Below are positions 11,106 through 31,222 of a stretch of 64,000 nucleotides of DNA, piece after piece. This DNA comes from Salinivirgaceae bacterium (GTDB taxonomy: Bacteria; Bacteroidota; Bacteroidia; Bacteroidales; SZUA-534). The stretch spans positions 62,001 through 126,000 of the forward strand of contig JAFXQB010000005.1 of NCBI GenBank assembly GCA_017527435.1. The letters run 5' to 3'. Made by a program: the position numbers and the translations under genes. The notes beneath the pieces are model-generated. The model ran no database searches. It saw only the letters and a program-made list of their open reading frames with translations, and was not told the origin of the DNA. Position 1 is the first letter of the stretch; every line of letters begins with the position of its first letter.

Positions 11106-11106
11106 G

Positions 11107-12274: not shown

Positions 12275-12312
12275 TTTATAACTTTTTAGGCTGATTATCA
12301 ATCGTTTATACC

Positions 12313-12339: not shown

Positions 12340-12383
12340 TAAAATGCCAAAATCTTGATTTTGTGCATTTTACACCCCGTAGG

Positions 12384-12420: not shown

Positions 12421-12459
12421 TCGCGGAAGGGAGAAAGTGGTAACTTCCTCCCTGGAGTG

Positions 12460-12714: not shown

Positions 12715-12923
12715 AAAATTAATTTTTAAAAACTTTACGAAAATAACAAAATTTAACAAAACAAACAATTTTATTCAAAAATATTCTACTTTAATACATT
12801 TTATTTAATTTGACATTGCCACAACGCTGAGAAGCGACTGCTCCGCAAAAAGGCATTGTGCAGAATGACGATGAAGACTTGGAAACGAAAATCAAAATAT
12901 TATTGGGCAAACTAATCGGGTGA

Positions 12924-13067: not shown

Positions 13068-13072
13068 GAAGG

Positions 13073-13348: not shown

Positions 13349-13354
13349 TTTTTA

Positions 13355-13506
13355 GATAATTTTTTTCCCAACCCGAAAACGCTGCCTGCATTTAAGCGAG
13401 CATTAAGGTTTTATTTGGTCGGTTATGGGCTCGCGGTTGTCAAGACGCGGCTTCCGCCGTCTTGACAATAAATGCACGCGGAGTTAGATTGGGAAAAAGA
13501 ATTATC
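13355..13506. repeat. 152-bp imperfect inverted-repeat structure with an internal hairpin
   Basis: The outer arms start GATAATTTTTTTCCCAA at the left and, read from the right, GATAATTCTTTTTCCCAA. Both arms continue to GCATTTA about 40 bp in. Inside, at 13437-13468, TTGTCAAGACGCGG pairs with CCGC-C-GTCTTGACAA (one bulge, 3-nt loop) as a very stable hairpin. The hairpin arms contain the TTGTCAAG core of the end repeats. No target duplication is evident. It could be a MITE-like insertion, a second transfer or replication origin, or a cassette recombination site. Confidence 0.6.
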
Positions 13507-13542
13507 CAGGCTAAACAGAGAGGAAGGATTGTAATACAGTGA

Positions 13543-13633
13543 TTTTGTTTGTTGTATTGTTTGTTTGTTGTATTGTTTGTTTGTTGTATTGTTTGTTTGT
13601 TGTATTGTTTGTTTGTTGTATTGTTTGTTTGTT
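13543..13633 (+). repeat. 16-bp tandem repeat, about 5.5 copies
   Basis: The unit TTGTTTGTTTGTTGTA repeats with period 16; GTTGTA recurs at 13551, 13567, 13583, 13599 and 13615. Copies are virtually identical, so the array is likely to vary in number. A low-complexity translation on the minus strand is not considered a gene. Confidence 0.9.
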
Positions 13634-14160
13634 AAAATTTTGTTGGATTGTAATATTGTTTGCTATTAAAAGGTATTGTTGGAAACAAATAAGAAGAAGC
13701 GTGAAACCATTCACTTTTTCCATTTCCACCATCTTAAAAATCCCCTAAAAAACCTACCTTTACACCGCTGTTGCAACATATTTTGCTGCAGCGCTACATA
13801 CATAAGGCGTCAGACTGATGCTTGTTTTTGGCTTTCTGAAAACTTAGGAACTTTCATAAAGGTGTATCAAAAACAATGCAAAAGATGATGCCACGGGTGT
13901 GATATACATTCCGGGGTGTGCATTGGGGCGTTATGTCCCTGCACGCTTTCTCGGACTATATACACGCAACGTGGGTATCTCTTTGCTTGTCCATACACAA
14001 TGGTTTCCTAAGGCCACAGAAAGCGGATGAGTTAAGGTTCAGATACTCACGTTTTTTGTTTGTAGCCAGTAACATTTGAGCAGCGATGTTCCCGAATCGA
14101 CGGGTTGGAAGTAGTTGAAAATAGCACAAACTGATTGCTCTAATAATCAAGGAAATAAGA
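13634..14160. other. Non-coding stretch before the helicase-nuclease gene
   Basis: I see no convincing gene, tRNA or clear TAnnTTTG promoter in these 527 bp. Base composition shifts from AT-rich (13634-13760) to balanced (13880-14100), which suggests joined pieces of different origin. The helicase promoter must lie near the right end, but no match is good enough to mark. Confidence 0.5.
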
Positions 14161-17022: not shown

Positions 17023-17133
17023 ATTCAGTCCAATTCCTGATGTCATAGGGCTTTCCCCGCAATATACTCTCTTAAATACTTAAACGGGAACGGGACCACT
17101 GTATTTTGGCGCTTTTAATCGTACCATTTGGAA

Positions 17134-18195
17134 TTATAACTTCTGAATCTCATTCCAGTAGAAGAATGCCTCAATGTTACTTTTCTTGAGTTTGTTGAAA
17201 TTAGTTGGCAGTGGGGCAGTGATAACGGCATTCGCCAATTGTTGTTCATCTCCTGGAAAGTAATGGAGAACTTCGGTTATACCATGTTCGATGAGTTTGC
17301 AAAGATAGGCAGCCTTTGACGCATTGACAATGGCGCTGTCGAGCCCATAGTTTTCGCTGTGAATGAAACTGCGAACTCGGCTTATTCCGTTTTGGAGCAA
17401 TTTGAACTCTTCAGGATTCTCCTTGCCACGGAGACATATACAAAGCGAGGTGCTGAAAATGTCATTGAGAACATCTTGCAGTTTGGTTGAGTCCGCCTTG
17501 CGATAAAGCAATTCTACGGCAGCATATTTGCGGAAGGTCTCTGCTGTAATCGTCAGGTCGTTTGTCATATCGAACAGTGCGGCTATGTCAAACAGTTGTT
17601 TGTTGATTTCCATTGTGCAGTCTTTCTCGCCCTTGAAGAACGGAATTCCCGTAGTGTGCGGTGCAAAAGCAGTCAGTTTGTCGCCTAACATATCCTGATA
17701 ACTTGGCAGACTGACCATCACAGGGGAGCCTTCGGTTTTCAGAAACGGGCTTTGAATCGGAAGCGACACAACGTGGGTATAATGATTCTCTTCAAACAGA
17801 ACATCAAGCAAAATCTTGTCTTGTCGTCCTCCTTCGGGATAAGACACCAGATAGTTGTATTTCGCGTGTTTTTTCGGAATGTCGGAGCGTGAAATGCGTT
17901 CCACCAACTCAACTTCACCAAAGCCGTATTCTGAAGAATAGACCTTCAGATAATCTTCAATCTGCGTGCCTGGCGGACAAATGATATCCACATCGATTGA
18001 CAATCGCTTGGCGCTGTTCAGATGAAGCATCTCGGCAGTTCCGCCTTTGAACAGTAACGGACATCCCGAACGCACCAATGCTTCTAGCAAAGAAAACGCC
18101 CTGATAGACTTTTCGACCAGTGCCAAATCCTTCACATTATTCTTTTTGGCAACTTTTTCTATCCACTCTAATGTTCTGCTGTCGGGGTGTATCAT
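17134..18195 (-). CDS. AbiEii-like nucleotidyltransferase toxin
   Basis: This 353-aa protein has the DNA polymerase-beta-type nucleotidyltransferase core: FKGGTAEML (residues 49-57) and RLSIDVDII (64-72) with the paired Asp D68 and D70. That is the signature of AbiEii/AbiGii toxins, which modify tRNA or other substrates with nucleotides to halt growth. Its ATG overlaps the TGA of the upstream AbiEi-like gene by four bases, the classic coupled antitoxin-toxin order. C-terminal helices (about 200-353) complete the family length. Confidence 0.87.
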   Translation of the reverse strand: MIHPDSRTLEWIEKVAKKNNVKDLALVEKSIRAFSLLEALVRSGCPLLFKGGTAEMLHLNSAKRLSIDVDIICPPGTQIEDYLKVYSSEYGFGEVELVERISRSDIPKKHAKYNYLVSYPEGGRQDKILLDVLFEENHYTHVVSLPIQSPFLKTEGSPVMVSLPSYQDMLGDKLTAFAPHTTGIPFFKGEKDCTMEINKQLFDIAALFDMTNDLTITAETFRKYAAVELLYRKADSTKLQDVLNDIFSTSLCICLRGKENPEEFKLLQNGISRVRSFIHSENYGLDSAIVNASKAAYLCKLIEHGITEVLHYFPGDEQQLANAVITAPLPTNFNKLKKSNIEAFFYWNEIQKL

Positions 18196-18914
18196 AATCC
18201 AATGGTGCTGAAGATTTTGAGTATATAATCCTTACGATTGCGGCGCGCTGCGTAACGTAGTAAGCGTTTGCGGTTCACATTGTAACTGCTGAAGGCATCG
18301 CTGTAAATGGTGTATAGTTCGGCGCCTTGCGCAAAGTTAAGTTCCTTGTCGCCTGCGGCATCCACCAGAATTTTTTCCAATGTTGGCACTGGCGTGTCGC
18401 CAGCAAGCGTGATGGGCGCTTCATTTACCAATACGCGGACAATTAATATTTTTTCGGTTGTGATGTATCTCTCACATTCTTGCTTTGTAGGATTCAGCAA
18501 TATGGGCATAGTTGGAAAAACTCCTTGTAGGAAGTTGAAAACCGATTTCATTGCAACGCGCTCGACATCCACAAACACCATCTTCAAGGCAGGAACATGT
18601 CGCATAAAACGGGTCAATGTCGATGGACTCCAGACACAGAAATCGGCAAATGGGAATTTCTTTTTTATCTGTTCCGATATCGTACGTTCTTCTTCGGATG
18701 GATTGTAAAAGAAATCCCGTCTTTCTTTTAAGGGAACGGCATACAAGCCATATCCAGTTTTAACCAACTTTCCGTTCTTCACAAGACGGCTGAGCAGCAC
18801 CTGAGCCGATGTTTCAGATACTTTTTGGGTATCTAAAAACTGCATCAGGTTACGCCTGCGAAAAGGTTGACACTGCGTGGATGCATAGTCTAATATCTGC
18901 TCTGGTATCGTCAT
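18192..18914 (-). CDS. AbiEi-like antitoxin / transcriptional regulator (DUF6577-like)
   Basis: The 240-aa protein has an N-terminal winged-helix segment (MTIPEQILDYAS, then SETSAQVLLSRLVKNGKLVKTGYGLYAVP) and a C-terminal AbiEi-type domain. It would repress its own operon and neutralise the AbiEii toxin (type IV toxin-antitoxin). The start at 18912-18914 is preferred over 18941 because a TAnnTTTG -7 box at 18939-18946 would otherwise lie within the coding region. The stop overlaps the toxin start as ATGA. Confidence 0.8.
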   Translation of the reverse strand: MTIPEQILDYASTQCQPFRRRNLMQFLDTQKVSETSAQVLLSRLVKNGKLVKTGYGLYAVPLKERRDFFYNPSEEERTISEQIKKKFPFADFCVWSPSTLTRFMRHVPALKMVFVDVERVAMKSVFNFLQGVFPTMPILLNPTKQECERYITTEKILIVRVLVNEAPITLAGDTPVPTLEKILVDAAGDKELNFAQGAELYTIYSDAFSSYNVNRKRLLRYAARRNRKDYILKIFSTIGL

Positions 18915-18938
18915 TGCCCCAAAAATGTAATTCAAGCG

Positions 18939-18984
18939 CAAACATATAACAATTTTGGCAAATTTTGGTAATTTTTGCCAAAAA
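18939..18984 (-). promoter_or_regulatory. Promoter and inverted-repeat operator of the AbiE operon
   Basis: On the minus strand TATGTTTG (18939-18946) is a good -7 element 24 nt before the antitoxin start. Immediately upstream, TTTTGGCAAA and TTTTTGCCAAAA (18953-18984) form an inverted repeat with another TTTGG half-site between. AbiEi antitoxins repress by binding inverted repeats at their promoter, and this position would cover the -33 region. No standard TTTG sits at the correct spacing, so the promoter call is moderate. Confidence 0.65.
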
Positions 18985-19011
18985 AGTTACAGATTCTTCT
19001 TTGGGCTTGTT

Positions 19012-19188
19012 TTAACCGTTTTTGTTTAGCCGTTTAAGTTCTTCTTCGGCTTCCTCGTTCATTTCTTCTATGAATCTTTGGGGCAAGTCAAGATGAATAT
19101 GTGCGTCCTGTTCAACCTCATATTCTTCATCGCTCCATTCGGCGGGGCGTTCAACAAGTTCAAAACAACGTTTGTGTATCTTTATTGA
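19012..19188 (-). pseudogene. 3' remnant of an unidentified gene (minus strand)
   Basis: About 50 codons are open and gene-like (RCFELVERPAEWSDEEYEVE, then DAHIHLDLPQRFIEEM), ending in an acidic helix and a normal TAA. There is no plausible start codon before the upstream TAG. The fragment runs head-on into the 3' remnant of another gene on the plus strand at about 19170. I read this as the C-terminus of a gene cut by a deletion or insertion. Family not recognised. Confidence 0.5.
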
Positions 19189-19342
19189 CTACATAAGCAA
19201 GAATAAAGTTGTGGACGGGAAAGGTGACGATTGGAAGAAACGTATATGTGAAGCTTTACAAACTAATTATAACGAAAAGAGAATTAGTAGTTATAAATCT
19301 ACCTATAAAGATTTCTTCAGTGACTTAGAAAACTGTTTTTGA
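19172..19342 (+). pseudogene. 3' remnant of an unidentified gene (plus strand)
   Basis: The open frame reads FIDYISKNKVVDGKGDDWKK, continues with RICEALQTNYNEKRISSYKS and ends in ENCF. Codon use is gene-like and the composition is AT-rich, but no start codon fits. The true 5' part is replaced by the antiparallel remnant 19012-19188. It could be the end of a mobile-element protein; I cannot name it. Confidence 0.45.
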
Positions 19343-19354
19343 TGTTGAAAAGGC

Positions 19355-19466
19355 AAATAAGCAAGGTGGGTTTTCCTAATAGGAAAACTTGCGGACGAGG
19401 CAGCCGCATAAGCACATGGCTGTTTCATGAGTGAAGTAACTTTCCGTTCCGTCGGTTGCTGTTTTT
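19355..19466 (-). repeat. Repeat B, copy 1 (separated from repeat A by a 2.1-kb cassette)
   Basis: On the minus strand this reads AGCAACCGACGGAACGGAAA, then CATGTGCTTATGC, then GCCTCGTC and ACCTTGCT. It aligns over about 105 bp with 29163-29270 on the plus strand with a few substitutions and small gaps. It contains a small hairpin (GTTTTCC-TATTA-GGAAAAC). In the other copy, B directly follows repeat A; here A lies 2.1 kb away at 21603-21722. Confidence 0.75.
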
Positions 19467-19489
19467 CGGGAAATCTCATTTAGAGAGTG
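19467..19489 (-). repeat. Cassette boundary repeat, B side
   Basis: On the minus strand CACTCTCTAAATGAGATTT resembles CACTCACTAATGGGCGATTT at 21595-21617. The two flank the segment holding the 194-aa gene, a phosphoesterase, the 74-aa gene and a terminator. The uninterrupted A-B copy has a single related stretch (ACTCACTATTCTCTCCATG at about 29137-29155). Confidence 0.5.
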
Positions 19490-19560
19490 TTTTTTCTGAA
19501 GCCCATTTCTTCCTATATTTTAGACCCAGTTCTATTATAGTTGGTAACTTCATTTTATAA

Positions 19561-19607
19561 AAATTGCTTCGTTTTAAAGTACAATTAAAACGAAGCAATT
19601 TTTTTGG
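19561..19607. terminator. Strong terminator hairpin
   Basis: AAATTGCTTCGTTTTAA (19561-19577) and TTAAAACGAAGCAATTT (19585-19601) are a perfect 17-bp inverted repeat with a 7-nt loop, followed by T residues on the plus strand and preceded by A-rich sequence that gives T residues on the minus strand. It can stop transcription from both sides, including the minus-strand cassette genes. Confidence 0.85.
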
Positions 19608-19786
19608 TGGCGGGATAATTATCATCCTATTTGAAATACCTTTTGAAGAAACAATTCTATTTAGCACATTTCAATTTTAGATAGCTGCCTATGACATGTG
19701 AATTCCCACATATGTCAGTTATCGCATTAGAAGCTTTGTGCCGGACATTATTTCCCCAATCACATTTGTTCTGGCAAAATCATCAA

Positions 19787-20011
19787 TTATCTCATTGATT
19801 TGTATCGAGGGTGTGTCCGAAGGAGTTCCTCATTGCGTTTTTCTTGCTGTCTCATAGCATCGGGCGACAAATGGTGCTTCTGCATTTGCATTATTGATTC
19901 CATACAGGCTTCGCTCTCCTTCTTGTGCGATTCTTTCAGGAAGCCAGGTTCGTAGCCAATCAGTTCCAAATATTTGTATGCCATATCTGTATAGTTCGTT
20001 TGCGCTCTCAA
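19787..20011 (-). CDS. Small hypothetical protein (74 aa)
   Basis: A 74-aa basic protein (AYKYLELIGYEPGFLKESHK, then MQKHHLSPDAMRQQEKRNEE). It is mostly helical and charged, with no signal peptide, membrane segment or recognised family. It lies 50 nt downstream of a phosphoesterase on the same strand and upstream of the terminator at 19561, so it is probably the last gene of that small transcript. Two starts are possible (20011 or the inner MAYKYLEL). Confidence 0.5.
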   Translation of the reverse strand: MRAQTNYTDMAYKYLELIGYEPGFLKESHKKESEACMESIMQMQKHHLSPDAMRQQEKRNEELLRTHPRYKSMR

Positions 20012-20061
20012 TTATTTCGTTATAAGTGCTGTCACCATAATTGACATTGCTGATTGCGAAA

Positions 20062-20853
20062 TTACTGATTATTCACTTCAATAAACCGTGACGGATTGAA
20101 ACCGTTTGTCAGGTTTTCACCGTGCGAGACGTAGCCCAACTGGTTGGAAAAAATTTTTGTGGCACCGATTTGTGCGTCAATGTTGCGGTGTGAGTGGCCG
20201 TAAATCCAGTAATCGATATCTGAATCAGCAATGTAATCGCCCAACTCGACGGTAAATGCACCATTTATCGTGCTGCTTTGGAACTCCTTTGCGGTGCACA
20301 ATTCCGTCGGAACGTGGTGCGTGAGAACAATCTTTGTTTTTGCCTGACTATCTCTCACGGCCAGTTTCACAAACGTCAGGCACCGTTCGTGCTCGCGGTT
20401 GAAATCGTCTGCCGTAAGGCGGTGGCCATTGTACTTGATTCGATAGAAATCATTCACTCTGCGTTCAGTGAGATACGCATCGTATGGCTCGATTTTCGAC
20501 CATAAAGTAGAAACCACGATATCGGCATCGGCGATATGCACCACGGCGTTGTAGTAGGCGTGAACATTGGTGCGGATTTCCTTGCAGTATCCGTCGGGCA
20601 TCTCCGAAAGGTTGTAACTGCCGTAGAAATCGTGATTGCCCAAACATACAACGACCTGCTTGTAATGCTCTGACGCCCAATCCCAAAACTCATATTTCGA
20701 ATAATCGTTACTTCCCGTTTCGGGATAATCGAGATATGCCGTGTCACCTGCAATTAACAGTATTTCGCCCGTTACGTTGAGTGGATTTTCGACAAGAAAC
20801 TGCTCGTTCTGCGAGAATTCCAAATGTAAATCGCTGACAAATTGAATGCGCAT
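20062..20853 (-). CDS. Calcineurin-like metallophosphoesterase (cassette copy, subfamily D)
   Basis: The 263-aa protein has all five motifs of the fold: FVSDLHLEF (D8, H10), LLIAGDTAYL near 32, VVCLGNHDFYG near 68, IVLTHHVPTE near 171 and YWIYGHSHRN near 217. It would be a two-metal phosphoesterase; the substrate (nucleotide, cyclic nucleotide, RNA end or protein) cannot be read from the sequence. It belongs to a different subfamily from the three phosphoesterases at 23836-26095, and lies in the 2.1-kb segment that seems to have been inserted between repeats A and B. Confidence 0.85.
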   Translation of the reverse strand: MRIQFVSDLHLEFSQNEQFLVENPLNVTGEILLIAGDTAYLDYPETGSNDYSKYEFWDWASEHYKQVVVCLGNHDFYGSYNLSEMPDGYCKEIRTNVHAYYNAVVHIADADIVVSTLWSKIEPYDAYLTERRVNDFYRIKYNGHRLTADDFNREHERCLTFVKLAVRDSQAKTKIVLTHHVPTELCTAKEFQSSTINGAFTVELGDYIADSDIDYWIYGHSHRNIDAQIGATKIFSNQLGYVSHGENLTNGFNPSRFIEVNNQ

Positions 20854-20955
20854 TGTTTTGTATTGGATTTATGACGGATTATGCTCTGTAATTTAAGTTA
20901 TTACTACATCATGTATATTGTTCTTAAAGTCAAATGTGCAACTTGACATTTAATC

Positions 20956-21540
20956 TTAAAAATATCGGAAATACTTGCTGAACAACTTGAAAAACTCACT
21001 TTTGCATTTTTCGCGGTAACGCTCTATTTCCTTTTCGCACTTGCGATACGAATTCCATACTTTGCAGTATTCCTTCCCGTTAACAGGGTCATTTATGGGT
21101 GTGTACATACGAATGCCATCGCTTTTTTTATCTTCTTCCGTTTGCAACTTCTCACCTAAAAAACCATATTTTTTTTCAAAGATTCTCTCTATTCGGTTCC
21201 ACTCTTTGTCGTATGGATTTTTCATAGAACATTTGTTTTCGTTCATCTCGTCGGCGAGAAAGGCCAAATGCTGAATCATATCTAACCAGCGTTTTAAATA
21301 CATTTCATTTTCTTCGGTACTAAGAGATTTGTCAAAACTGATAATATTCCCTTTCTCGTCCAACAAGAAGAATCCTGGAGTCTTTTTTGCCAACTGCTTC
21401 AGCATCGGACTGATTGTGTTACAAAACCAATAATCTATCGATAATACATCGCTGTCGCTGAAACCGCGTTTTGCCCTTTGTTTTGACATTCGCTCTTCAT
21501 ATTCAAAATCTATTATTTCTCGTGTGTGCTTTTTTGCCAT
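20956..21540 (-). CDS. Hypothetical protein of a phage/mobile-element family
   Basis: This 194-aa protein has the stretch RGFSDSDVLSIDYWFCNTISPMLKQL (residues 25-50), then YLKRWLDMIQHLAF and the basic C-terminal helix EIERYREKCKSEFFKLFSKYF. The SDxDVxxIDxWF pattern followed by a WxxxxxxM helix recurs in unnamed proteins of phages and mobile elements. No enzymatic motif is visible. It is the first gene of the 2.1-kb cassette, 102 nt before the phosphoesterase. The intervening leader holds one ACTTGACA (20941-20948). Confidence 0.6.
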   Translation of the reverse strand: MAKKHTREIIDFEYEERMSKQRAKRGFSDSDVLSIDYWFCNTISPMLKQLAKKTPGFFLLDEKGNIISFDKSLSTEENEMYLKRWLDMIQHLAFLADEMNENKCSMKNPYDKEWNRIERIFEKKYGFLGEKLQTEEDKKSDGIRMYTPINDPVNGKEYCKVWNSYRKCEKEIERYREKCKSEFFKLFSKYFRYF

Positions 21541-21594
21541 AGTTGCTAGTATTAAATTGACATTCAGTTAATGCGTTTAAATATAGTTCTTTTT

Positions 21595-21722
21595 AAAAAA
21601 TCGCCCATTAGTGAGTGGTTGGGTGTGGTCGCAGGCGCAACGTCAACTAATGGACTTAATCAGAAAGGCAATACACACCTAAGCCGTTGGTCATTAACGC
21701 ATTCTGATTCATTTTCTAATTC
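21595..21722 (-). repeat. Repeat A, copy 1, with cassette boundary repeat at its end
   Basis: On the minus strand the repeat starts at the stop codon of the HicB-like gene: GAATTAGAAAATGAATCAG, a diverged 40-nt centre, then CTGATTAAGTCCATTAGTTG and TGCGCC. It aligns with 29029-29145 on the plus strand, with conserved ends and a variable middle of similar length. CCATTAGT and ACTAATGG form an inverted repeat within it. At 21595-21617 it ends in the sequence that recurs at 19467-19489. Confidence 0.75.
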
Positions 21723-22386
21723 AACATTGTACTAACACGATATCCCATGTCGTTTTTCGGCCTTTGTAGTTGGCATCAACCTTTTCCTGATTGCTTTCAT
21801 AAACATCTCCGACAGCACAGTCTATATTATCTAACAACTCTTTAATGGTTTTGCCCAAGCCTGTGGCTTCGGGTATTTCGCGGCATTGCCCAGCGTAACG
21901 TCCGTTTTTTTCGTCTTTCCTCACTGCAACGGTGTATCCGTGTGGTGTTTTGTGAATCTTGCAATCTAGACCGCAGTCGGCATCAACCTTTTCGCGATTG
22001 CTTTCAATCACAAGTTGTATGGCTTCCTCAATATTGTCATACAACTCATCAATGGTTCTGCCCTGACTCATGGCCTCGGGTAAATGGTAGCACTGGCCCA
22101 TATACCAGCCGCTTTTCTCGTCTTTGTCTATGACAATATCGAAATCCACGTATGGTTGGGCTCGTTTTTTTAGGCTGTGTTTACTTGTTTTGCCTTGCTT
22201 TAACGCTTCTTCGTAAAGGCGTTTTATTATATGAAGTGTCACCCTTTTTTTTAGTTCTTCTACTGACATGTTGGATTTTGAAGGGTCAAATTTTATTTTG
22301 TTTAAGTCCACTTTGATTACATCTATCATTCTAACCTTTTTGCGTTGACATTGCGTTTTGTCGGGATAAAGTTTCTCTCTTTTCAT
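21721..22386 (-). CDS. Protein with two tandem HicB-like antitoxin domains
   Basis: This 221-aa protein carries two HicB partial RNase H folds in a row: DFDIVIDKDEKSGWYMGQCY then HLPEAMSQGRTIDELYDNIE (about 80-125), and YTVAVRKDEKNGRYAGQC then REIPEATGLGKTIKELLDNI (about 145-190). Each ends in the typical helix (EEAIQLVIESN, DCAVGDVYESN). The basic N-terminal 80 residues are unlike HicB. Usual HicB proteins have one such domain and partner the small RNase HicA; no HicA-like gene is adjacent. The start overlaps the upstream stop (ATGA), so it is translated with the phosphoesterase operon. It may bind RNA or neutralise an operon toxin. Confidence 0.75.
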   Translation of the reverse strand: MKREKLYPDKTQCQRKKVRMIDVIKVDLNKIKFDPSKSNMSVEELKKRVTLHIIKRLYEEALKQGKTSKHSLKKRAQPYVDFDIVIDKDEKSGWYMGQCYHLPEAMSQGRTIDELYDNIEEAIQLVIESNREKVDADCGLDCKIHKTPHGYTVAVRKDEKNGRYAGQCREIPEATGLGKTIKELLDNIDCAVGDVYESNQEKVDANYKGRKTTWDIVLVQC

Positions 22387-22796
22387 AGTTGTCTTGATTT
22401 AAGTTTATACCATCCATCTCCGAATTTCATTTTCTTCAGTTCGTCGCTGACATAAAACACATAGTAGCAGTTGTCGCACCATTTGGGCCGAGCGTAATCA
22501 AACAACCTTATATTTTTTCCGCCAATGTTGACGGCAATATCTTTCACGTTTTCCGCCTCATCCATAAATAAAGAGTTGTCACATGGTATCTGATTCGGAT
22601 AAAGTCTGACGCCATACAAGTTGTCTGCCGCGAAATATTCGCGGATTGCCGTTTTCAGAATGCGTTCCGTGATACTCATATCAGGTGATTTTTCAAGGAA
22701 ATCATCTGCAGCGACAATCTCTTTCGTATCAGTAACATTATCATTGTCGTTCTTCCCTTTGACAAAAAAAGTTGATATCCATTTTGCGGATTTCAT
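22383..22796 (-). CDS. Hypothetical protein (operon member)
   Basis: About 137 aa, unrecognised, containing MSITERILKTAIREYFAADN, YPNQIPCDNSLFMDEAENVK and PKWCDNCYYVFYVSDELKKM. It has two nearby Cys (CDNC) but no full zinc motif. The gene overlaps the end of the 349-aa upstream gene by 56 nt if started at 22796, and an internal ATG at 22679 would avoid the overlap. The overlap contains a T7 run where a +1 shift would join the two frames. It is coupled (ATGA) to the double-HicB gene. Confidence 0.5.
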   Translation of the reverse strand: MKSAKWISTFFVKGKNDNDNVTDTKEIVAADDFLEKSPDMSITERILKTAIREYFAADNLYGVRLYPNQIPCDNSLFMDEAENVKDIAVNIGGKNIRLFDYARPKWCDNCYYVFYVSDELKKMKFGDGWYKLKSRQL

Positions 22797-23790
22797 CGGC
22801 GGTTTTCGCACCGTGTTTCAATAGTAACCGTTCCATCTTTTTCAGAATGTCGAGTCGTGTTTTTTTGCCCTTCCAATTCCGTTTTTCTTCTTTCGCGTAG
22901 GCCTTGCGTATGAAATCAAGACAACTGCAGCCTTTAATGATTCCCGTCAGGCTACTTCCACGCTTAAGGCACCATTTGAATTTCAGGTATGCGTCTTTTG
23001 CCACATTGTTATCGTCAAACCCAAGAAATTCTATTACCTCGCACAGGCACAGCAATGAGTATTTTGCCGAATAGCCCTCGATATCAACCAGATAATCGAG
23101 CAACTCTATGTCGTGATAATTCTCAAAGTTAGGGCAGAACTCAATGACTTTGTTTTTGAAGAACATATTGCAGTACGACTGATACTCACTGTCACTCAAT
23201 TTGCCCGTGTCGCGTTGTGTGCTTAAATATTTGATTAGCAACTGCTTCTTTGCAATATAATTCTCAACGTTGCCGCTTATTGAATCTAAATATATATCAT
23301 CAAACTCCCCCCAGCCGCTATCAATCCAGAAACGTACAATGAACATTTTCACCATTCCGTCAGCAAGCATGTCATCGTAACCAATCGCCGTAAAATCGGT
23401 TGGGTCCAGAACGGAATACAAATCCAGTCTTTGGAATTGGTGCACAAGTTTGGCTAGTTCGGTGTCGGGAATGACAGTTTGGCTGTTGGTCCAGATTTTT
23501 ACGATAAAAAGACTTCTTTCGAAACACTGCATTTTTTCCAACTGCATCAGGCAGTCTTCAATTGGCGTTGCGGTAGCAGATTGCACGCAATAAGCCGAAT
23601 ACTGGTATAGAAAACTACTGTTGAAATCGTCCAAACGTGCAACACCTTTATCCCAAACTTCGCAATGGCTCTTTACGATATCGGTCACTTCCGCTTCCGA
23701 TATTTTGCTTTTTGTCACATCCCGCCCATTCTCACATGCGTACAGTTGCGAATCTGTTGGACAATCGGGTACAAATTCGTTTATGTTCAT
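22741..23790 (-). CDS. Unrecognised 349-aa protein (operon member)
   Basis: This cytosolic protein has no signal peptide or membrane segment. It is rich in Cys, aromatics and short helices (FWIDSGWGEFDDIYLD near 157, YNCMFFKNKVIEFCPNF-like stretch near 207, RNWKGKKTRLDILKKMERLL near 310). I cannot assign a domain. It lies 45 nt after a phosphoesterase gene on the same strand, within the long minus-strand operon that starts at 27577. The end overlaps the next gene. Confidence 0.6.
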   Translation of the reverse strand: MNINEFVPDCPTDSQLYACENGRDVTKSKISEAEVTDIVKSHCEVWDKGVARLDDFNSSFLYQYSAYCVQSATATPIEDCLMQLEKMQCFERSLFIVKIWTNSQTVIPDTELAKLVHQFQRLDLYSVLDPTDFTAIGYDDMLADGMVKMFIVRFWIDSGWGEFDDIYLDSISGNVENYIAKKQLLIKYLSTQRDTGKLSDSEYQSYCNMFFKNKVIEFCPNFENYHDIELLDYLVDIEGYSAKYSLLCLCEVIEFLGFDDNNVAKDAYLKFKWCLKRGSSLTGIIKGCSCLDFIRKAYAKEEKRNWKGKKTRLDILKKMERLLLKHGAKTADEIRKMDINFFCQREERQ

Positions 23791-23835
23791 AGTTATTTGG
23801 TTTTAAGGGTTATACAATGTATTAGCAATTCTCTA

Positions 23836-24711
23836 TTATTTTAAAAAGGCCTCCAACCATTCGTCTATATTTTGGGGCTTTTTCCGACCACGGTGGGTCA
23901 CTTCTTTCCATGGGATTTCGTCGATTAGGGTTGTGTCAAGTAAAGCACCTTTTCTTTCCTTATCATCATTGCTATCGACAACGATAAGGCAGCGGCTGCC
24001 TGATTTAAAAGCGCCCAAACCAATTCGCGTATGTCCGACAACCTGACATTTTATTCGCGGTGGCCAGTTTTTGGCTTCAAACAATGCCCACGGCCTTACC
24101 CATACACAAGACGCATCGTCGCTGTTACCATATACGTCGTCCCCCATAAGGTCGAAATAGGAAATGCCATTCTTTCTGGAATTAAAATCATAATGCATTA
24201 TGAAATTCAAAGTTTCAGGGTTGAATGGGTTAACGTTTAAAGATTCCCATTTCCGTTCGTTGTCTGGCGAAAGTCTTTTCTTGCTATTTAATTTAGAAAA
24301 CTGTCCAACCACTCTTTTGTAGAAATCCATTGTCACCCCCGCATGTGAGAACAAACAACCATCAATCAGATAGACAACGTTCAAAATATCAAGATTATCC
24401 CTGAACATTTCCCTGTAATAATTCGTCATGTCGCCGTGGTGCCGCGAGCAATATATAGCATCTCTGCCGCTTGAAATGTAACTCATGTCATGATTGCCAA
24501 GGCAAAGACAGAATTTATCAGGCTCTTTGCGGGCCATCTCGCACAGCATCCAGAAATCATTAACCAGACTGTCGTTATCCAGTCCTTGCTCGTACCCGTC
24601 AACATAATCACCCAAAACAACCACCTTGTCAACGTGGTCTTTGTGCTCGTTGATTACGCTAAAGGCATCCTCAAATTTTCCGTGAATGTCAGGAATTACA
24701 AGAATCTTCAT
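23836..24711 (-). CDS. Calcineurin-like metallophosphoesterase (PPP-like, subfamily C)
   Basis: The 291-aa protein has the phosphoprotein-phosphatase order of motifs: VIPDIHGKFEDAF (D8, H10), VVVLGDYVDGY near 31, LCLGNHDMSY near 69, LFSHAGVTMDFY near 118 and VVGHTRIGLG near 228. GDxxDRG-like GDYVDG and the SHAG motif relate it to Ser/Thr phosphatases and Ap4A hydrolases. Its start codon overlaps the previous phosphoesterase stop by 4 bases, so the enzymes are made together. Confidence 0.87.
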   Translation of the reverse strand: MKILVIPDIHGKFEDAFSVINEHKDHVDKVVVLGDYVDGYEQGLDNDSLVNDFWMLCEMARKEPDKFCLCLGNHDMSYISSGRDAIYCSRHHGDMTNYYREMFRDNLDILNVVYLIDGCLFSHAGVTMDFYKRVVGQFSKLNSKKRLSPDNERKWESLNVNPFNPETLNFIMHYDFNSRKNGISYFDLMGDDVYGNSDDASCVWVRPWALFEAKNWPPRIKCQVVGHTRIGLGAFKSGSRCLIVVDSNDDKERKGALLDTTLIDEIPWKEVTHRGRKKPQNIDEWLEAFLK

Positions 24712-25301
24712 TTGGTTTCTGTTTTGCGTTGTTTTATAATTCTATCTACCTCATTGAATGATATTGGCTTATAGCCATTGTTATCTACCCCGACATCGTA
24801 TTGAGTAGGGAACAGGTACGCCAATCGCGGAATGTCCTTGCCATCAGAGAAATCGGAAGTATGGACGTGCCCGAAGAATTGGTATGTCTTGAACGGACTG
24901 TATGTCCCAGCATAGCACAGGAATGGGTAATGGTTTAGAATGATTTTCCGATTATCTACAATAATCGACATTTGTTCGGCAACGTTGATAAGATTTTTGT
25001 ATTGGTGGCGACGGTCGAAATACTTTCGGTCATGGTTGCCCAATACAAGGTGAATGTGGCCGTTGAGTTGGGCTAGAATGCCGTCCCACATTTTCACATT
25101 GCCAAAGCAAAAATCGCCCAAATGGAACACAACATCGTCTTTGCCAATGCGGGCATTCCAATTGTCAATTAGAGTCTGGTTCATTGCTTCAACACTGTTG
25201 AACGGACGGCCATTCATACGGATTATGGCTTCGTGACAAAAATGTGTGTCGCTTGTAAACCAGACAGGCTGGCCGCTTATAATCATATCGTAGTTCTTCA
25301 T
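24708..25301 (-). CDS. Calcineurin-like metallophosphoesterase (YfcE/phage-type, subfamily B)
   Basis: The compact 197-aa enzyme has WFTSDTHFCHEAIIRMNGRP (D18, H20), VVFHLGDFCFGN near 58, LVLGNHDRKYF near 87, ILNHYPFLCY near 116 and QFFGHVHTSDF near 137. FTSDTHFxH at the N-terminus marks a subfamily found in phages and mobile elements. It is coupled by 4-nt overlaps to the phosphoesterases on both sides. Confidence 0.88.
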   Translation of the reverse strand: MKNYDMIISGQPVWFTSDTHFCHEAIIRMNGRPFNSVEAMNQTLIDNWNARIGKDDVVFHLGDFCFGNVKMWDGILAQLNGHIHLVLGNHDRKYFDRRHQYKNLINVAEQMSIIVDNRKIILNHYPFLCYAGTYSPFKTYQFFGHVHTSDFSDGKDIPRLAYLFPTQYDVGVDNNGYKPISFNEVDRIIKQRKTETK

Positions 25302-26095
25302 AGCGTATTTACTTTTCGTATTTGCATAATGTCAAGCGCCGTGAAATCAATGCCGTCAATAGTGGCTTCGTTGTGCAGGTGAAAGTGTCCATAGAACCAC
25401 TGACGCAGCGGGTGTTTGTCGGCAAGCAAGTGTTCGTAAATCTTGTCGATAGTGGCACGTTCCATCTCGCAGTCAATAAAAAGAGCATTGTCGCGAGCCA
25501 ACCATGACTCTATGCCGTTCTTGTCGGTCGGCACACAGAACGAAGGCGCAGTGTGGGTGACCACAGTGTCAATCGGGATTTGCTGTTGTTGCAGTTCGTC
25601 GAGCAATGCAGGCGAATAGAATGGCGGCTCGTCGGGCCAATAATAGGTGCGGCCATCGGCAGCCTGCCAGTTCTTGCGAACGCGGCGGTCAATGCTGATT
25701 GCACCACCAACGCACAGCACATTATGCCCACAACAGCGGACAACGGTATAGTCGGGAATAATCAAAAATCTGTCAGCTGCTTGCCGTTGCTCTATAAACC
25801 ATGCGGGGTCGTCGTGGTTGCCGCGCAGCAACACCACTGTTACGTTATGCTTGCGAAGTTGTTGGCCGCAATGTTTAAACTCGCTCTCGTAATATTTTGG
25901 CGAATGAAAACCTAATCCACAATCGCCAGCAACAATCACTACGGCGTTGTTAAGGTTGTATTGGTTGCATATAGTGAACACCAACGAGCGGAACTCTCCA
26001 TGAATGTCGCCGCAAACAAACATATGTTCGGCGTTCGGGAAGTCTGCCTTTACGAGGTGGCGGTTATCGGGATTGTTATGGTAATAGTCAGTCAT
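25298..26095 (-). CDS. Calcineurin-like metallophosphoesterase (subfamily A)
   Basis: The 265-aa enzyme has VCGDIHGEF (D30, H32), VIVAGDCGLGF near 53, VVLLRGNHDDPAWF near 91, VVTHTAPSFCVPTDKNG near 182 and WFYGHFHLHNEATIDG near 237. The GDIHGEF opening and the TAPS stretch match a subfamily of cytosolic phosphoesterases. It is the first of three overlapping phosphoesterase genes and follows the 484-aa unknown gene by 27 nt. Confidence 0.87.
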   Translation of the reverse strand: MTDYYHNNPDNRHLVKADFPNAEHMFVCGDIHGEFRSLVFTICNQYNLNNAVVIVAGDCGLGFHSPKYYESEFKHCGQQLRKHNVTVVLLRGNHDDPAWFIEQRQAADRFLIIPDYTVVRCCGHNVLCVGGAISIDRRVRKNWQAADGRTYYWPDEPPFYSPALLDELQQQQIPIDTVVTHTAPSFCVPTDKNGIESWLARDNALFIDCEMERATIDKIYEHLLADKHPLRQWFYGHFHLHNEATIDGIDFTALDIMQIRKVNTL

Positions 26096-26122
26096 AATAT
26101 TCTAACATTTGGAAGATGGAAT

Positions 26123-27577
26123 TCAGAAGTTATACTCAATATTGTTGATATACTCCAATAATCGGTCATTACGTTTTTCTTTGTAATCATCACCTGTATA
26201 TCCACCATTTATTATGATGTCGAGCATTGAAGCCAGGTTACATTCTGCAGTGTTGCATTTGTATTTGCCTTGAAAAACCAAACTTCGCGTGTACTTGAAT
26301 ATGTTGAACGAATAATAGTCATCAATTGTAATGCACATAATTCCATCGAATACGATGCCTGAAACTTGCATGACGTATGCCGGAGTTTTAATCGCGTAAC
26401 CAGGTCCTTCAAATTTAGCCTTTGCTATGAGGAAGGTGCGTTCAATGTTCCATCTCTTATTCCAATCATTTCCCTCACCATAAATACATTTGTCAATGTC
26501 TTGGTATGTATTGTTCAATTCTGCTTCATATATATCAGCTTCATAACTCAAACCAACATGGAAAATCCTACGTATATCATAATCAGCATCGAATATCTCA
26601 TCGCATAATTCAGGTGTCATTTTTCCAATTCGTTTCGATATATCTTCTGCCAACTCAAAAGTTCTTGGTATGTAACCATAATTTCTTTTTATGTATTTGT
26701 TTACAAGCTCTTTTACGGCCAACAACAATTCCGTTTCATATTTTGGTTTGCAGATATTAGCACAATAATCCCAATCATGACCTATGGTGAACACATATTC
26801 CGATTTTAAACCAATATAAGCCGAATCTGGGGTGTTGTTTCCGTTTTTCTCCGATTCAAATAAATGCTTAATATCTTTTTCATCAATCTTTTTCAACAAT
26901 ACGACATTTATATCAATGTCTTGCCCATCAACACTAAACGTCAACACAAGACCGAATGTCTCGTATGTATTATTGTAGTAGTACAAACTAACCTTTTTAA
27001 GGCCCCACAGAGACAAGGCATCAACACTCAAAACCTCAACTATACTTTTCCATTTTTTGCGAAATCTTTTAATTACAGATTGCGACAGTTTGGTCGGCTT
27101 GATTGTACGATAAAACGTTTTTAGCACATTGGGATAGAAATATGTCCAATCAACGTTTCTGTCGCAGGATGAGTCGAGCATAATATATTTGCCATCAATC
27201 GAAAAACGTAATTTAGTTCTCAACTCGTTGTAAATAGATGTTATTCGAAATGTGGCTATCCCGAATTTAGAAAGAGTAGCGTCATCAAAAACTCTCAAAT
27301 TAATCGGTCTGCCATCATCCTCATAACGAATAGTGATTTCATAGTATTTGAGTTCGTTAATTGCTATGGCAAATTTTTCAAAATCTGTATCAGACATTCC
27401 CACTTCTTCTTTCAAAAGATTGATGGCGGAAATGTTATATTTCATATTTTGGACTAACACTCGCTTCACTATTCTTTCGCGCAAAGTGTCTTCAGGCAGA
27501 TGATTCACCCAGTCGGTGTTGTCGTGCTCTGCGAATTCAATTGCTTCTGGCATCTCTTCATAATCGGTGTTGCTCAT
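26123..27577 (-). CDS. Unrecognised 484-aa protein, first gene of the phosphoesterase operon
   Basis: A large cytosolic protein without signal peptide or membrane helices. The start at 27575-27577 (MSNTDYEEMPEAIEFAEHD) lies 28 nt after a full promoter match. Notable are repeated amphipathic strands (LRFSIDGKYIMLDSS near 130, LVLTFSVDGQDIDINVVLL near 215, VMQVSGIVFDGIMCITIDDY near 420), basic helices (SVIKRFRKKWKSIVEVL near 170) and clustered Tyr/Trp. The alternating beta pattern hints at a binding scaffold. I do not recognise any family or catalytic motif. It probably defines the specificity of the operon. Confidence 0.6.
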   Translation of the reverse strand: MSNTDYEEMPEAIEFAEHDNTDWVNHLPEDTLRERIVKRVLVQNMKYNISAINLLKEEVGMSDTDFEKFAIAINELKYYEITIRYEDDGRPINLRVFDDATLSKFGIATFRITSIYNELRTKLRFSIDGKYIMLDSSCDRNVDWTYFYPNVLKTFYRTIKPTKLSQSVIKRFRKKWKSIVEVLSVDALSLWGLKKVSLYYYNNTYETFGLVLTFSVDGQDIDINVVLLKKIDEKDIKHLFESEKNGNNTPDSAYIGLKSEYVFTIGHDWDYCANICKPKYETELLLAVKELVNKYIKRNYGYIPRTFELAEDISKRIGKMTPELCDEIFDADYDIRRIFHVGLSYEADIYEAELNNTYQDIDKCIYGEGNDWNKRWNIERTFLIAKAKFEGPGYAIKTPAYVMQVSGIVFDGIMCITIDDYYSFNIFKYTRSLVFQGKYKCNTAECNLASMLDIIINGGYTGDDYKEKRNDRLLEYINNIEYNF

Positions 27578-27605
27578 AGTTGTTTTTTTATTGGTTTCGT
27601 GCTGA

Positions 27606-27637
27606 CAAAAATAACAAATCAAGCCTCAAAAAACAAA
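27606..27637 (-). promoter_or_regulatory. Promoter of the phosphoesterase/HicB operon
   Basis: On the minus strand TTTG (27634-27637) and TATTTTTG (27606-27613) are separated by 20 bp, a full match to the Bacteroidetes promoter. The ATG of the 484-aa gene follows 28 nt after the -7 element. Seven genes down to 21721 follow with gaps below 46 nt or overlaps, so one transcript is likely. Confidence 0.75.
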
Positions 27638-27862
27638 TAAAAATAGAGTTTAATTTATTGATATTTAATGAGTTAACTATAAATATGACCAGATTTCTCC
27701 TACAGCAAATATATTGGCAGAAACAAGTTTGGTTTTACATTTTTTAAGTGTGGTCAGTCATCAGGTTAATTGTCAGGTTAATAGGCGTTGAAAAAAGTTT
27801 TTAACACCATATAAATGTGTGCTTATTCTTAACTAATTTTATCCTAAATCATATAACAGGTT

Positions 27863-29005
27863 ATGGATGATGATAACATTCGAAAAAAGGCTGAAAATAA
27901 AGCCGATATGTTAATGGAAACATGGTCGGACAAATCCGTTTTCGATGAAATAAATTTGAGTAATCAATATTTTGACACACTGCGTTCCAAAATGGAATGT
28001 TGGCATTGGTTCGAAATCTGTTATTATTCCGAAGAAGAAAGAGAAGAAATTGTTGAAAAAGCAATTGGTGAGGTGAGACGAGTATTAGGATGTTTTATTC
28101 GCGCAAACATAAACAATGGCTATTCCGAAATAACGGTTCGCGCAAAACTCGTTGATATAATCAATTTTGTACCAATGATTTTTGAGGACATGAGCGATAA
28201 AAATGTTTTTATCAGGTATGACTTGTCGTATGCGCTTCGGAGATGGGAAGAATATATCGAATTTTTAAAAACGCCACAACTGCCATACAAAGGAATAATA
28301 CATATAAAATCAGAAAGGCAAAAAACGAAAGAATTAAAAGAGAAACATTACAATACAAAACCAAAGTCTTCAACAATACGCCGTAAGGCACAATCAATCA
28401 AATCATTTTGTCAGTTTCTGAATCAATATGGTGGATACCATCACACCAACTACGAATCGTTTCCCGATTTCAGTAAACCGATTTACAGGCAATCAAATAA
28501 AGTCTCAATTACAACTACAGACATAGAAAAAATAGTAAATAAAATACCCACAAATAAAAATGGTGCTGTTTCGTTCATCGGTTATCGAGATAAGGCGATA
28601 ATTATAGCCTTAAGCCACATCGGTCTTACTGTATCTGAACTGATTAATCTGAATGTTAATGACATTGATTTTGACAACCGTTTTATTACAATCATTCACA
28701 GCGCAAATCGAGGGCGCAGATTAATCATCGACAAAGACACATATTGGGCAATGAAGAAATACTATGACATTTGCATAAAGAAATATCCCGCCCCTGAAAA
28801 ATTCTTCATAACAGCCAAGGGTAAGCATATTTCGGGAGTCAGCATTTTCAAGATAGTGAAAGAGAATGCAGAACATGCTGGCTACAATCACATTAACCCA
28901 CAAATGTTGCGCGAATTAGTGAAAAAAAGAATGATAATGCATAAACAAAAATCAAAAATACCGGAAACGTTGGGAATAAAAAGATTGTATAACAGGAATT
29001 TGTGA
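27863..29005 (+). CDS. Degenerate tyrosine-recombinase-like protein
   Basis: The 380-aa protein has a long unfamiliar N-terminus (1-165), a SAM-like core-binding segment (TIRRKAQSIKSFCQFLNQY near 171) and a recombinase catalytic fold (GYRDKAIIIALSHIGLTVSE then LINLNVNDIDF, 240-270). The catalytic Arg expected in GLR is Thr256, and the HxLRH box is QMLRE (Q347, R350, E351). Only the second Arg and a terminal Tyr (Y376) remain. The frame is intact, so it is maintained, perhaps as a DNA-binding factor. It diverges from the phosphoesterase operon and is followed by repeats A and B. Confidence 0.75.
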   Translation: MDDDNIRKKAENKADMLMETWSDKSVFDEINLSNQYFDTLRSKMECWHWFEICYYSEEEREEIVEKAIGEVRRVLGCFIRANINNGYSEITVRAKLVDIINFVPMIFEDMSDKNVFIRYDLSYALRRWEEYIEFLKTPQLPYKGIIHIKSERQKTKELKEKHYNTKPKSSTIRRKAQSIKSFCQFLNQYGGYHHTNYESFPDFSKPIYRQSNKVSITTTDIEKIVNKIPTNKNGAVSFIGYRDKAIIIALSHIGLTVSELINLNVNDIDFDNRFITIIHSANRGRRLIIDKDTYWAMKKYYDICIKKYPAPEKFFITAKGKHISGVSIFKIVKENAEHAGYNHINPQMLRELVKKRMIMHKQKSKIPETLGIKRLYNRNL

Positions 29006-29028
29006 AGGAGTTGGAATCAAAAAACATT

Positions 29029-29270
29029 AAATGTCGAATTAGAAAATGAATCAGATTGTGCTTGTGTATCGTGGCATAGGGGCTTGCTGCTAGTCTGATT
29101 AAATCCATTAGTTGGCGATGCGCCTATAGTCGAGTTACTCACTATTCTCTCCATGTAAAAATAGCAACCGACGGAATGGAGAGTTGACTTGCTCATGAGA
29201 CTATCATGTGCTTATGCAACTGCTTCGTCAGCAATTTATTCGACCAGAAAACTCGCCTTGCTATCAGAAA
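29029..29270 (+). repeat. Repeats A and B, contiguous copy
   Basis: Repeat A (29029-29145, starting ATGTCGAATTAGAAAATGA, with CTGATTAAATCCATTAGTTG and TGCGCC) is followed at once by repeat B (29163-29270, with AGCAACCGACGGAATGGAGA and CATGTGCTTATGC). On the minus strand the same two blocks lie at 21722-21603 and 19466-19355, with 2.1 kb of genes between. CTCTCCAT and ATGGAGAG flank the A-B junction as an inverted repeat. Confidence 0.75.
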
Positions 29271-29586
29271 AGATTGTAGAAAATTATTATCAAAAAATGT
29301 CCTAAAACAATGTGGAAATACGGAATGTAAGGGAAGAAATTCGGTACGTTATTTTATCAATATTCCAAGGATTCACAATAGCCACTCGTTTAATGCCCAT
29401 CTTCACAATGAGTACTTTTCTCCCTTTCATTTGTAACCAATTGTTCATATATGGAAGGGATAGAAAGGCTTATTCTGCTTAGATTCTTTCCCTACTGTTA
29501 AGCGGTGTTGCAGCCGAGCGAATTAACCTCGGGTTTTGGGGGTAGCGCCCCCATAAGGATTCAGCCTATCTGCCACGTTTTTACAT
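29271..29586. other. Non-coding stretch with two small GC-rich hairpins
   Basis: No convincing gene is seen. CCGAG and CTCGG (29513-29530) can form a short stem followed by TTTT. TGGGGG and CCCCCA (29537-29553) form a 6-bp hairpin around TAGCG. Such GC-rich hairpins stand out in this AT-rich region and could belong to an excision, replication or transfer site near the integrase. Confidence 0.5.
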
Positions 29587-29770
29587 ACTTGACAATTATA
29601 TATATGTATTTATATATCAATATATTACAATTGTCAAGTACTTGACAAACTTGACAATTGGTATATATAAATATTTGATATACAATACAATATGATTTTA
29701 GTCAATATTGTTGTATATTGACATAACAATCTGATATAAAACGTTTTATGTGGTGTCAAGTAACTTGACA
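29587..29770. repeat. Right-end cluster of ACTTGACA/TGTCAAGT repeats
   Basis: ACTTGACA occurs at 29587, 29640, 29649 and 29763, and TGTCAAGT at 29632 and 29754. TTGTCAAGTACTTGACAA (29631-29648) is a perfect 18-bp palindrome, almost the same as the left-end palindrome at 9074-9093. GTGTCAAGTAACTTGACAGC at 29752-29771 is an inverted pair with 1-bp spacing. The cluster lies just past the 3' end of the integrase gene. Confidence 0.8.
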
Positions 29771-29777
29771 GCAAGGG

Positions 29778-31040
29778 CTATTTAATGGGCAGAATATTGT
29801 TAAGGGCGTTCATCGAGGTTTCTCGAGCATCGTTCAGAATAGCAATATATGGTTTCATAGCCTTGTATGAACTATGTCCTGTCCAATCCATCACTATCTG
29901 AGTAGGAACACCTTGCGATAAGGCAAGAGTCACGAATGTACGTCTGGCAGTGTGTGTGCCTATCAGCGAATATTTAGGAGGAAACGATTCAATGCGCCTT
30001 TGTCCGCTATAGGATATTTGTGGGACTAGTGTATCTATCCCTGCCATTTCAGCAATTATTTTGAGGTACATATTCATGCGTTGATTAACGGCAACAGGTA
30101 GGGCTTTGTCATCCTTTGTTGGATAGTTTTCATATTTTCGGAGTATGGAGGAAGTGACATCATTAAGCTCAACTATTAGAGTGTCAGTTGTTTTGATTGT
30201 AGTAAACTGGATTTTCCCATTGATAATATTTGACCTTCTCAAGTTATAGACATCACTGTGCCGCAACCCTGAAAAACAACAAAAAATAAAGACGTCACGT
30301 GCTTGTTCAAGGTGCATTTGTGACCTGTCAAACTTCAAATTTATCAGCGAATTCAGTTCGGGAATAGTAAGGTAAACAGGCTTGTTGTGCACTTGCTTAA
30401 GCTTGGGGACAAAAGTCTCGTAATCAATTACATTATGGTACCCCTTTTTGTGCGCCCATTTAAGAAACCATTTCAAGAACCCCAAATTCTTCCCTATAGT
30501 AGAGTTCTTTAGGCCTTCCTTCTCGCGAAGAAATTCGATGAAGAGTCCCAACCCTGTTTCATTAAAATCTTCGAATTCTGGGTTGGCTTCAAAATTGATA
30601 ATGTGCTGCTTTAATGCTGCGAACTTCTCATAAGTGGCAGGTGTCCAATCCTTAATTGCCCCGTTTACTTTCACAAACTCATCATATACTGTAATGAAAG
30701 ACAACTGGAATTGAAGTTTAGGATTACGCAAATCCAGAAAAGCACTTTTCAGTTGGGCTGGGCGAGGCATAAAGCCTTTTCGTGCATATTGGCTTAGAAT
30801 GGAGTCAATATCGTCACGGAATTGGCGTAATTGGGTATTGATGTCATGTGCTAGTCGTGCTTCATAAATGTCATTCGATGATTTAACAATCATCGTTTTT
30901 TCATCCCATTTTTTGGGATTGACTTTAAGCCCCGTAGTTGTCCGCAGACGTACTCCACCATATGAAATATGCATGCGTATTGGGGCACAATTACTTTTTT
31001 TGAATCTTGAATCAAGTAGGAATCTAATTTGATGTTTCAT
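29778..31040 (-). CDS. Tyrosine-type site-specific integrase of the element
   Basis: This 420-aa integrase has an Arm-DNA-binding domain (residues 1-95, GGVRLRTTTGLKVNPKKWDE), a SAM-like core domain (110-205) and a complete catalytic domain: R260 (FSGLRHSD), H363 and R366 (HTARRTF), H389 (WTGHSS) and nucleophile Y398 (MKPYI). This is the family that integrates Bacteroides elements into tRNA genes. It is transcribed away from the right end. It should act on the 18-bp attachment repeats at 8817 and 31205. Confidence 0.93.
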   Translation of the reverse strand: MKHQIRFLLDSRFKKSNCAPIRMHISYGGVRLRTTTGLKVNPKKWDEKTMIVKSSNDIYEARLAHDINTQLRQFRDDIDSILSQYARKGFMPRPAQLKSAFLDLRNPKLQFQLSFITVYDEFVKVNGAIKDWTPATYEKFAALKQHIINFEANPEFEDFNETGLGLFIEFLREKEGLKNSTIGKNLGFLKWFLKWAHKKGYHNVIDYETFVPKLKQVHNKPVYLTIPELNSLINLKFDRSQMHLEQARDVFIFCCFSGLRHSDVYNLRRSNIINGKIQFTTIKTTDTLIVELNDVTSSILRKYENYPTKDDKALPVAVNQRMNMYLKIIAEMAGIDTLVPQISYSGQRRIESFPPKYSLIGTHTARRTFVTLALSQGVPTQIVMDWTGHSSYKAMKPYIAILNDARETSMNALNNILPIK

Positions 31041-31204
31041 TTGCGTTGTTTTTAAAATTTAAAATAGTGTTGTCATTTTGTTGACACTTTTAGTTTAAAT
31101 TGAATTGAATGCAAATAAATAATCTAATGTCGGAAACATCAAGTAAAATATTGATTTACAGTAGTTTTTATAGTTAGATTAAATATAGTTAAATGAAGAC
31201 GGAA

Positions 31205-31222
31205 AATCTCGTCCTCTCCGCA
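31205..31222 (+). repeat. attR: 18-bp direct repeat
   Basis: AATCTCGTCCTCTCCGCA is identical to 8817-8834 at the tRNA-Ser 3' end and marks the right boundary. Upstream, TGTTGACACTTTT at 31079-31091 equals 8881-8893 inside the left end, as expected of integrase core or arm sites present on both ends. Confidence 0.92.

Follow-up and report, generated by a model that had tools for sequence, protein, structure and literature searches.

An intact gene on an island of a Salinivirgaceae bacterium encodes a Xer-type tyrosine recombinase that is, with high probability, dead as a recombinase and maintained as a protein. The dead, conserved, DNA-binding-fold part of this reading is well supported. The role proposed here, control of transcription in the divergent region upstream of its gene, is given a probability of about one half; within it we infer that the protein binds DNA, which site it recognises and that it governs transcription. 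Together with a homologue carried by a second species of the same genus, the protein makes up a new small family of conserved pseudo-recombinases; catalytic loss with a retained fold is itself already known elsewhere. The window is the whole 64,000-nucleotide stretch of DNA that was analysed, and the features discussed are collected in Table 1.

Table 1 Features of the pseudo-recombinase locus and its island, in positions of the window
Feature	Position	Strand	Description
Whole island	8817..31222		22.4 kb, flanked by an exact 18-bp direct repeat
SF1 helicase (MkoA-like)	14161..17022	+	homologue of the helicase beside the G009 pseudo-recombinase
Repeat B, left	19360..19466	-	structured ~105-nt element of the genus
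Variable gene array	20062..26095	-	downstream of partner; four calcineurin-like phosphoesterases, HicB-like protein, unknowns
Repeat A, left	21633..21728	-	
Divergent partner gene	26123..27577	-	484 aa from ATG, 499 aa from first possible start; no Pfam family
Conserved block	27440..27840		80-93% identical to the G009 locus; candidate binding region
Pseudo-recombinase gene	27863..29005	+	catalytically dead Xer-type tyrosine recombinase, 380 aa
Repeat A, right	29030..29125	+	inverted, 75% identical; 25 bp past pseudo-recombinase stop
Repeat B, right	29157..29262	+	~150 bp downstream of pseudo-recombinase
Intact island integrase	29778..31040	-	Arm-DNA-bind_5, SAM_5, Phage_integrase

The reading frame has exactly the bounds given in Table 1 and contains zero stops. 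Its product matched the Pfam family Phage_integrase (E=1.5e-14) and, in NCBIfam, the XerA/integron-integrase (6e-26), XerD (3e-23) and XerC (2e-19) models; by family profiles it is nearest to XerA/XerD. It scored 82 bits against the XerD equivalog cut-off of 330, 70 bits against the XerC cut-off of 335 and 91.6 bits against the cut-off of 220 for XerA/integron-integrase, which is a broad model. The integron-integrase equivalog model gave no match in NCBIfam, and the active site is lost as well.

A fold model was built from a 20-sequence alignment rich in true Xers, so that its Xer likeness is partly there by construction. Its mean pLDDT was 69.6, with 74-97 across most of the catalytic domain (~215-360). 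The top Foldseek matches were XerA (1e-8), XerD and IntI4, and the phage repressors SroF of phi3T (1e-4) and YopR/MrpR of SPbeta (3e-4) were also listed. An AlphaFold model from two sequences was poor (pLDDT 42) and was set aside. The profile matches and the model place the protein in the tyrosine recombinase superfamily. The recognisable fold and the frame undamaged over 380 codons that a first-pass annotation had reported are both confirmed.

The chain consists of an acidic extension (residues 1-60, pI 4.5), a core-binding-like domain (60-215, pI 9.6) with a basic insertion near 138-168, and a catalytic-domain fold (215-372), and it ends before the tyrosine; with a pI of 9.9 for the catalytic region, both DNA-contact domains are basic. 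The N-terminus had been described as new, which is true of the extension but not of residues ~60-215, which still align with the Xer core-binding domain.

To read the catalytic residues, the protein was aligned with 18 Xer-type recombinases: 15 came from viral contigs and three from genomes of the order, the host's own Xer being among these three. Columns 256, 280, 347, 350 and 372 and the tyrosine column hold R, K, H, R, H and Y in 18/18; the pseudo-recombinase has T256, S280, Q347, R350 and I372, and the tyrosine is absent. Five of the six catalytic residues are lost, Arg-II (R350) being the sole survivor, and the protein lacks the R-K-H-R-(H/W)-Y set of an active tyrosine recombinase. Its chain stops one residue short of the column of the nucleophilic tyrosine, and the C-terminal helix is missing too. 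The first-pass annotation had spoken of a protein lacking most of its catalytic residues and had named Thr256, Q347 and E351; the general statement is borne out and all three substitutions are correct, but S280 (the beta-hairpin lysine), I372 (the histidine of LGH) and the missing tyrosine and C-terminal helix had been overlooked. Both histidines of HxLRH were said to be replaced, and Q347 and E351 had indeed been read correctly; the E351 column, however, is not universally catalytic, holding 12 H, 5 R and 1 K among the 18.

Displacement of residues that are still present, which the same annotation had proposed to check by profile alignment, was ruled out by the 18 Xers, with no nucleophile standing at the right column. 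Y376, which falls 5 positions before the tyrosine column, could be brought into register only by a deletion, as in an alternative alignment. A C-terminus hidden by a frameshift or stop was also rejected: the DNA past the stop encodes no Xer-like end in either copy.

One homologue was found among 20 genomes of the family, in G009, the second species mentioned above. This protein (404 aa, 49% identical) shares the T, Q, R, E and I columns, has G at the lysine column and is truncated at the same point, the end ...LGIKRxYNRxL being common to both. Nucleotide identity between the two genes is 0.66, 0.72 and 0.46 at codon positions 1, 2 and 3, and the NG86 method gave dN 0.40 and dS 1.99 (saturated), which puts dN/dS at ~0.2 for the whole comparison and at 0.1 for the catalytic domain. 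The catalytic-domain and C-terminal segments (~60% identical) are among the best-kept parts of the pair. The shared losses and the dN/dS indicate that catalysis was lost in the common ancestor of the two island lineages and that the protein has since been kept by purifying selection; recent decay is ruled out on the same grounds. The first-pass annotation had proposed a survey of close homologues for the same substitutions, with homologues of normal active site beside a copy simply decaying as the refuting outcome; the same substitutions were seen. Searches of ~800 genomes from the order and class, and of the phage, plasmid and viral collections, yielded no homologue whose active site is normal.

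The known family has two members. No further pseudo-recombinase turned up in genome_contigs, in viral_contigs or in the genomes of the order (393) and of the class (395); distant relatives can escape the degenerate-pattern scans. Plasmids and phages gave only generic Xer matches (~25%) and no relative of the pseudo-recombinase. Among the ten other genomes of the genus G009 alone carries one. The stem leading to the pair in a tree is 3.3 changes per column long, and the pair is placed weakly (66/55) near XerD-like sequences of the order.

Both islands are integrated at tRNA-Ser genes, mobilizable and furnished with defence genes. Copies of the repeat AATCTCGTCCTCTCCGCA bound the window island at 8817-8834, the 3' end of tRNA-Ser(GCT), and at 31205-31222; the G009 island is 38 kb long, with a 15-bp repeat at tRNA-Ser(TGA). 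The cargo in the window includes a DUF5712 protein (probably a mobilization protein), an AAA ATPase, the helicase and AbiE. In G009 the genes next in line after the pseudo-recombinase, on its own strand, are an SF1 helicase homologue, DdmD-like (1e-42) and DdmE-like (4e-10) genes and then type I R-M genes, the type I restriction genes being named by sequence inspection; the DdmD-like and DdmE-like genes beside them occupy L016:1456-6634 (-). A very stable ~110-nt imperfect hairpin (z = -6.0, no Rfam match) lies between the G009 pseudo-recombinase and helicase at L016:9131-9280 (-). Several TGTCAAGT/ACTTGACA motifs, possibly integrase arm sites, stand just inside both ends of the window island (~8922-9259 and 29586-29774). 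Tandem 16-nt TTTGTTTGTTGTATTG repeats, which may be slippage-prone, were seen upstream of the helicase gene at 13528-13655.

On both islands the pseudo-recombinase gene is divergent from the partner gene, which heads the variable array. The partner (G009 homologue at L016:10969-12384; 481-499 aa across both loci) is present only alongside the pseudo-recombinase, in 2/20 family genomes and 1/294 order genomes. Its N-terminal 45 aa are 87% identical to G009 (third codon positions 0.87; 97% aa identity over 10-45) and the remainder ~30%, a sharp mosaic border between the species, possibly that of a shared leader with a diversifying body. The conserved block (~370 bp in one measure) takes in these first ~45 codons and the intergenic/promoter region, and outside it both flanks drop sharply to about 40-50% identity, with 40-65% for the neighbouring genes. 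Such conservation could reflect constraint at the DNA level (promoters, operator) or block exchange between the islands, and the two sequences fit both. No dif-like or palindromic Xer-type site in the conserved intergenic block rose above shuffles, nor did any dispersed operator motif, for which ~27 matches were expected and 30 and 29 counted. The intergenic region gave z values of +0.5 and +1.0 for RNA structure. Rfam offered no credible match.

Some members of the array are 85-94% identical between the window and G009 and are arranged differently. A chimeric gene at L016:14123-14536, in which a new 5' part is joined to the C-terminal half of an array phosphoesterase, duplicating the gene 1.3 kb upstream, indicates that the array is actively rearranging. 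Repeats A and B are genuine inverted pairs (75-79%) and lie between some array genes; on the question of whether they are attC-like, A has no significant fold, B is structured and neither has an Rfam match. Reading repeat A as coding was rejected: the opposite-strand frame is open, yet the substitutions have no codon bias (8/9/7). Repeat B has further copies at L016:16841-16946, L051 ~1141-1252 and L050 ~10051-10165. It is intergenic, has a predicted structure that is conserved (32 pairs, with one compensatory change in five copies), and adjoins remnants of the phosphoesterase C-terminus in three genomes.

The pseudo-recombinase had been noted to sit next to repeats A and B, which is so in the window (Table 1) but not in G009, where 4.5-7.5 kb separate them from it and they stand at the other end of the array. 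G010 and G015, both of which lack the pseudo-recombinase, have repeat B as well. Given these gene-less genomes and the distance in G009, the repeats are no evidence of a specific partnership, which weakens the suggestion that the protein is a site-binding factor for the cassette repeats.

In the regulatory role proposed, a Xer-derived recombinase would have lost catalysis and been retained as a DNA-binding protein, keeping a basic core-binding-like domain and a catalytic-domain fold without the cleavage residues. Its predicted target is the conserved ~280-bp intergenic region upstream of its own gene. From there it would control both divergent promoters, one driving its own gene and the other the 481-499-aa gene at the head of the array, in a manner like that of MrpR/YopR of phage SPbeta. 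A repurposed regulator is the best supported of the three roles first suggested for the protein: neither displaced residues nor a decaying copy was found, the layout and the block are conserved, and dead-recombinase repressors exist. On the other side, the family has two known members, and both the palindromic Xer-like site and the dispersed operator were no better than chance. The block reaches into 45 partner codons, and recent recombination would explain it as well as a binding site. The Xer likeness of the model is partly built in by the Xer-rich alignment, and the two-sequence model was poor. More tentatively, the pseudo-recombinases may be a novel Xer-derived family which, together with the partner gene, makes up the controlling head of an array that is modular and exchangeable, in mobilizable defence islands, an integron-like layout in which an 'integrase' has turned switch.

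The gene order in G009, together with the helicase homologue and AbiE on the window island, might instead point to a component of a defence module that senses or binds invader DNA, for example with the SF1 helicase and the DdmD/DdmE-like genes. However, the window helicase stands ~11 kb from the pseudo-recombinase and the window has no DdmD/E, and in G009 a 410-bp gap with the strong hairpin separates the pseudo-recombinase from the helicase. DdmDE and helicase systems are moreover known without such a protein, and this role seems unlikely. Less likely again is an accessory or architectural factor for the intact integrase, acting in directionality or synapsis or as a dead subunit in a mixed complex, as the structural partner of the first-pass annotation would have been. 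A related intact integrase (40% identical) is indeed present on each island, in the window ~770 bp from the pseudo-recombinase; but the integrases are of another subfamily (Arm-DNA-bind_5/SAM_5), and in G009 the two genes are ~29 kb apart at opposite ends of the island, which weakens the idea. Integrases of such elements generally manage without a pseudo-recombinase, as its absence from the other genomes of the genus also implies.

An improbable alternative is that the protein selects targets or sites and recruits other machinery to them, for instance to bring new genes into the array. This has a precedent in TnsF of Tn6022, a proven DNA-targeting protein derived from an inactivated tyrosine recombinase (PMC10293859), and the mosaic array, with members far closer between the islands than the 49% of the pseudo-recombinases, would suit it. 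Homologous recombination at shared spacers can yield the same mosaic, though; no TnsB/TnsC/TniQ-like gene was found among the island proteins scanned (part of the G009 ORFs), and TnsF retains ~70 aa of the catalytic domain where the pseudo-recombinase retains most of it. It is very improbable that the gene is a selfish remnant or decaying integrase of a derelict integron-like platform, with no present function. An array divergent from a recombinase-like gene, as in integrons, and repeats between some array genes are what such a platform would leave, but both frames are intact, the dN/dS is low, the catalytic-domain and C-terminal segments are well kept and the integron-integrase equivalog model is unmatched.

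Among known systems, XerC, XerD and XerA are the best family matches and have the same domain order, but the pseudo-recombinase lacks their Arg-I, Lys, both His, Tyr and C-terminal helix and has an additional N-terminal extension and basic insertion. A catalytic point mutant of Pseudomonas XerC raises pyocin expression less than deletion does, which implies a non-catalytic role for XerC (PMC8609362). Integron integrases with their cassettes share the layout in which a gene resembling a recombinase and a variable array of small genes point away from each other, with a conserved block between. The window locus differs in having no catalysis and no IntI equivalog match, in an array that holds multi-gene operons, and in repeats A/B, which are at most candidate attC sites and are not specific to the pseudo-recombinase. 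TnsF, the inactivated tyrosine recombinase that serves DNA targeting in the Tn7-like Tn6022 (PMC10293859), combines zinc fingers with two core-binding domains and a partial catalytic domain of ~70 aa, and works with TniQ/TnsABC. None of these was seen here, and neither TniQ/TnsABC nor a YRec/HTH co-occurrence was found among the proteins scanned, which covered the second-island ORFs in part.

The closest parallel in kind is MrpR, which has a tyrosine-recombinase fold, keeps 3/7 catalytic residues, has no recombinase function, and is a proven master repressor that binds operators (PMC10516654). MrpR (YopR) of SPbeta and SroF of phi3T resemble the pseudo-recombinase in fold, in catalytic loss and in carriage by a mobile element, and the combination of a recombinase fold with lost catalysis is found in all three. 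The structural match is moderate (3e-4 and 1e-4, against 1e-8 for XerA), and YopR/SroF were absent from a PDB sequence search at E 0.01. MrpR keeps K169 and Y304, whereas the pseudo-recombinase has neither and no C-terminal helix; MrpR also has a repeated operator, SPBRE, whereas a similar repeated motif at the pseudo-recombinase locus was not above chance. Few bacterial cases of dead tyrosine recombinases kept as DNA-binding proteins are proven (MrpR/SroF and TnsF), and the authors of the MrpR study suggested that such recruitment is commoner than thought (PMC10516654). If the regulatory reading is true, the pseudo-recombinase would add a third lineage, apparently of Xer origin and housed in mobile islands of bacteria rather than in a phage. 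Its clear candidate target region renders the idea directly testable, and the case calls for caution with 'integrase' annotations beside defence genes, as these can be regulators.
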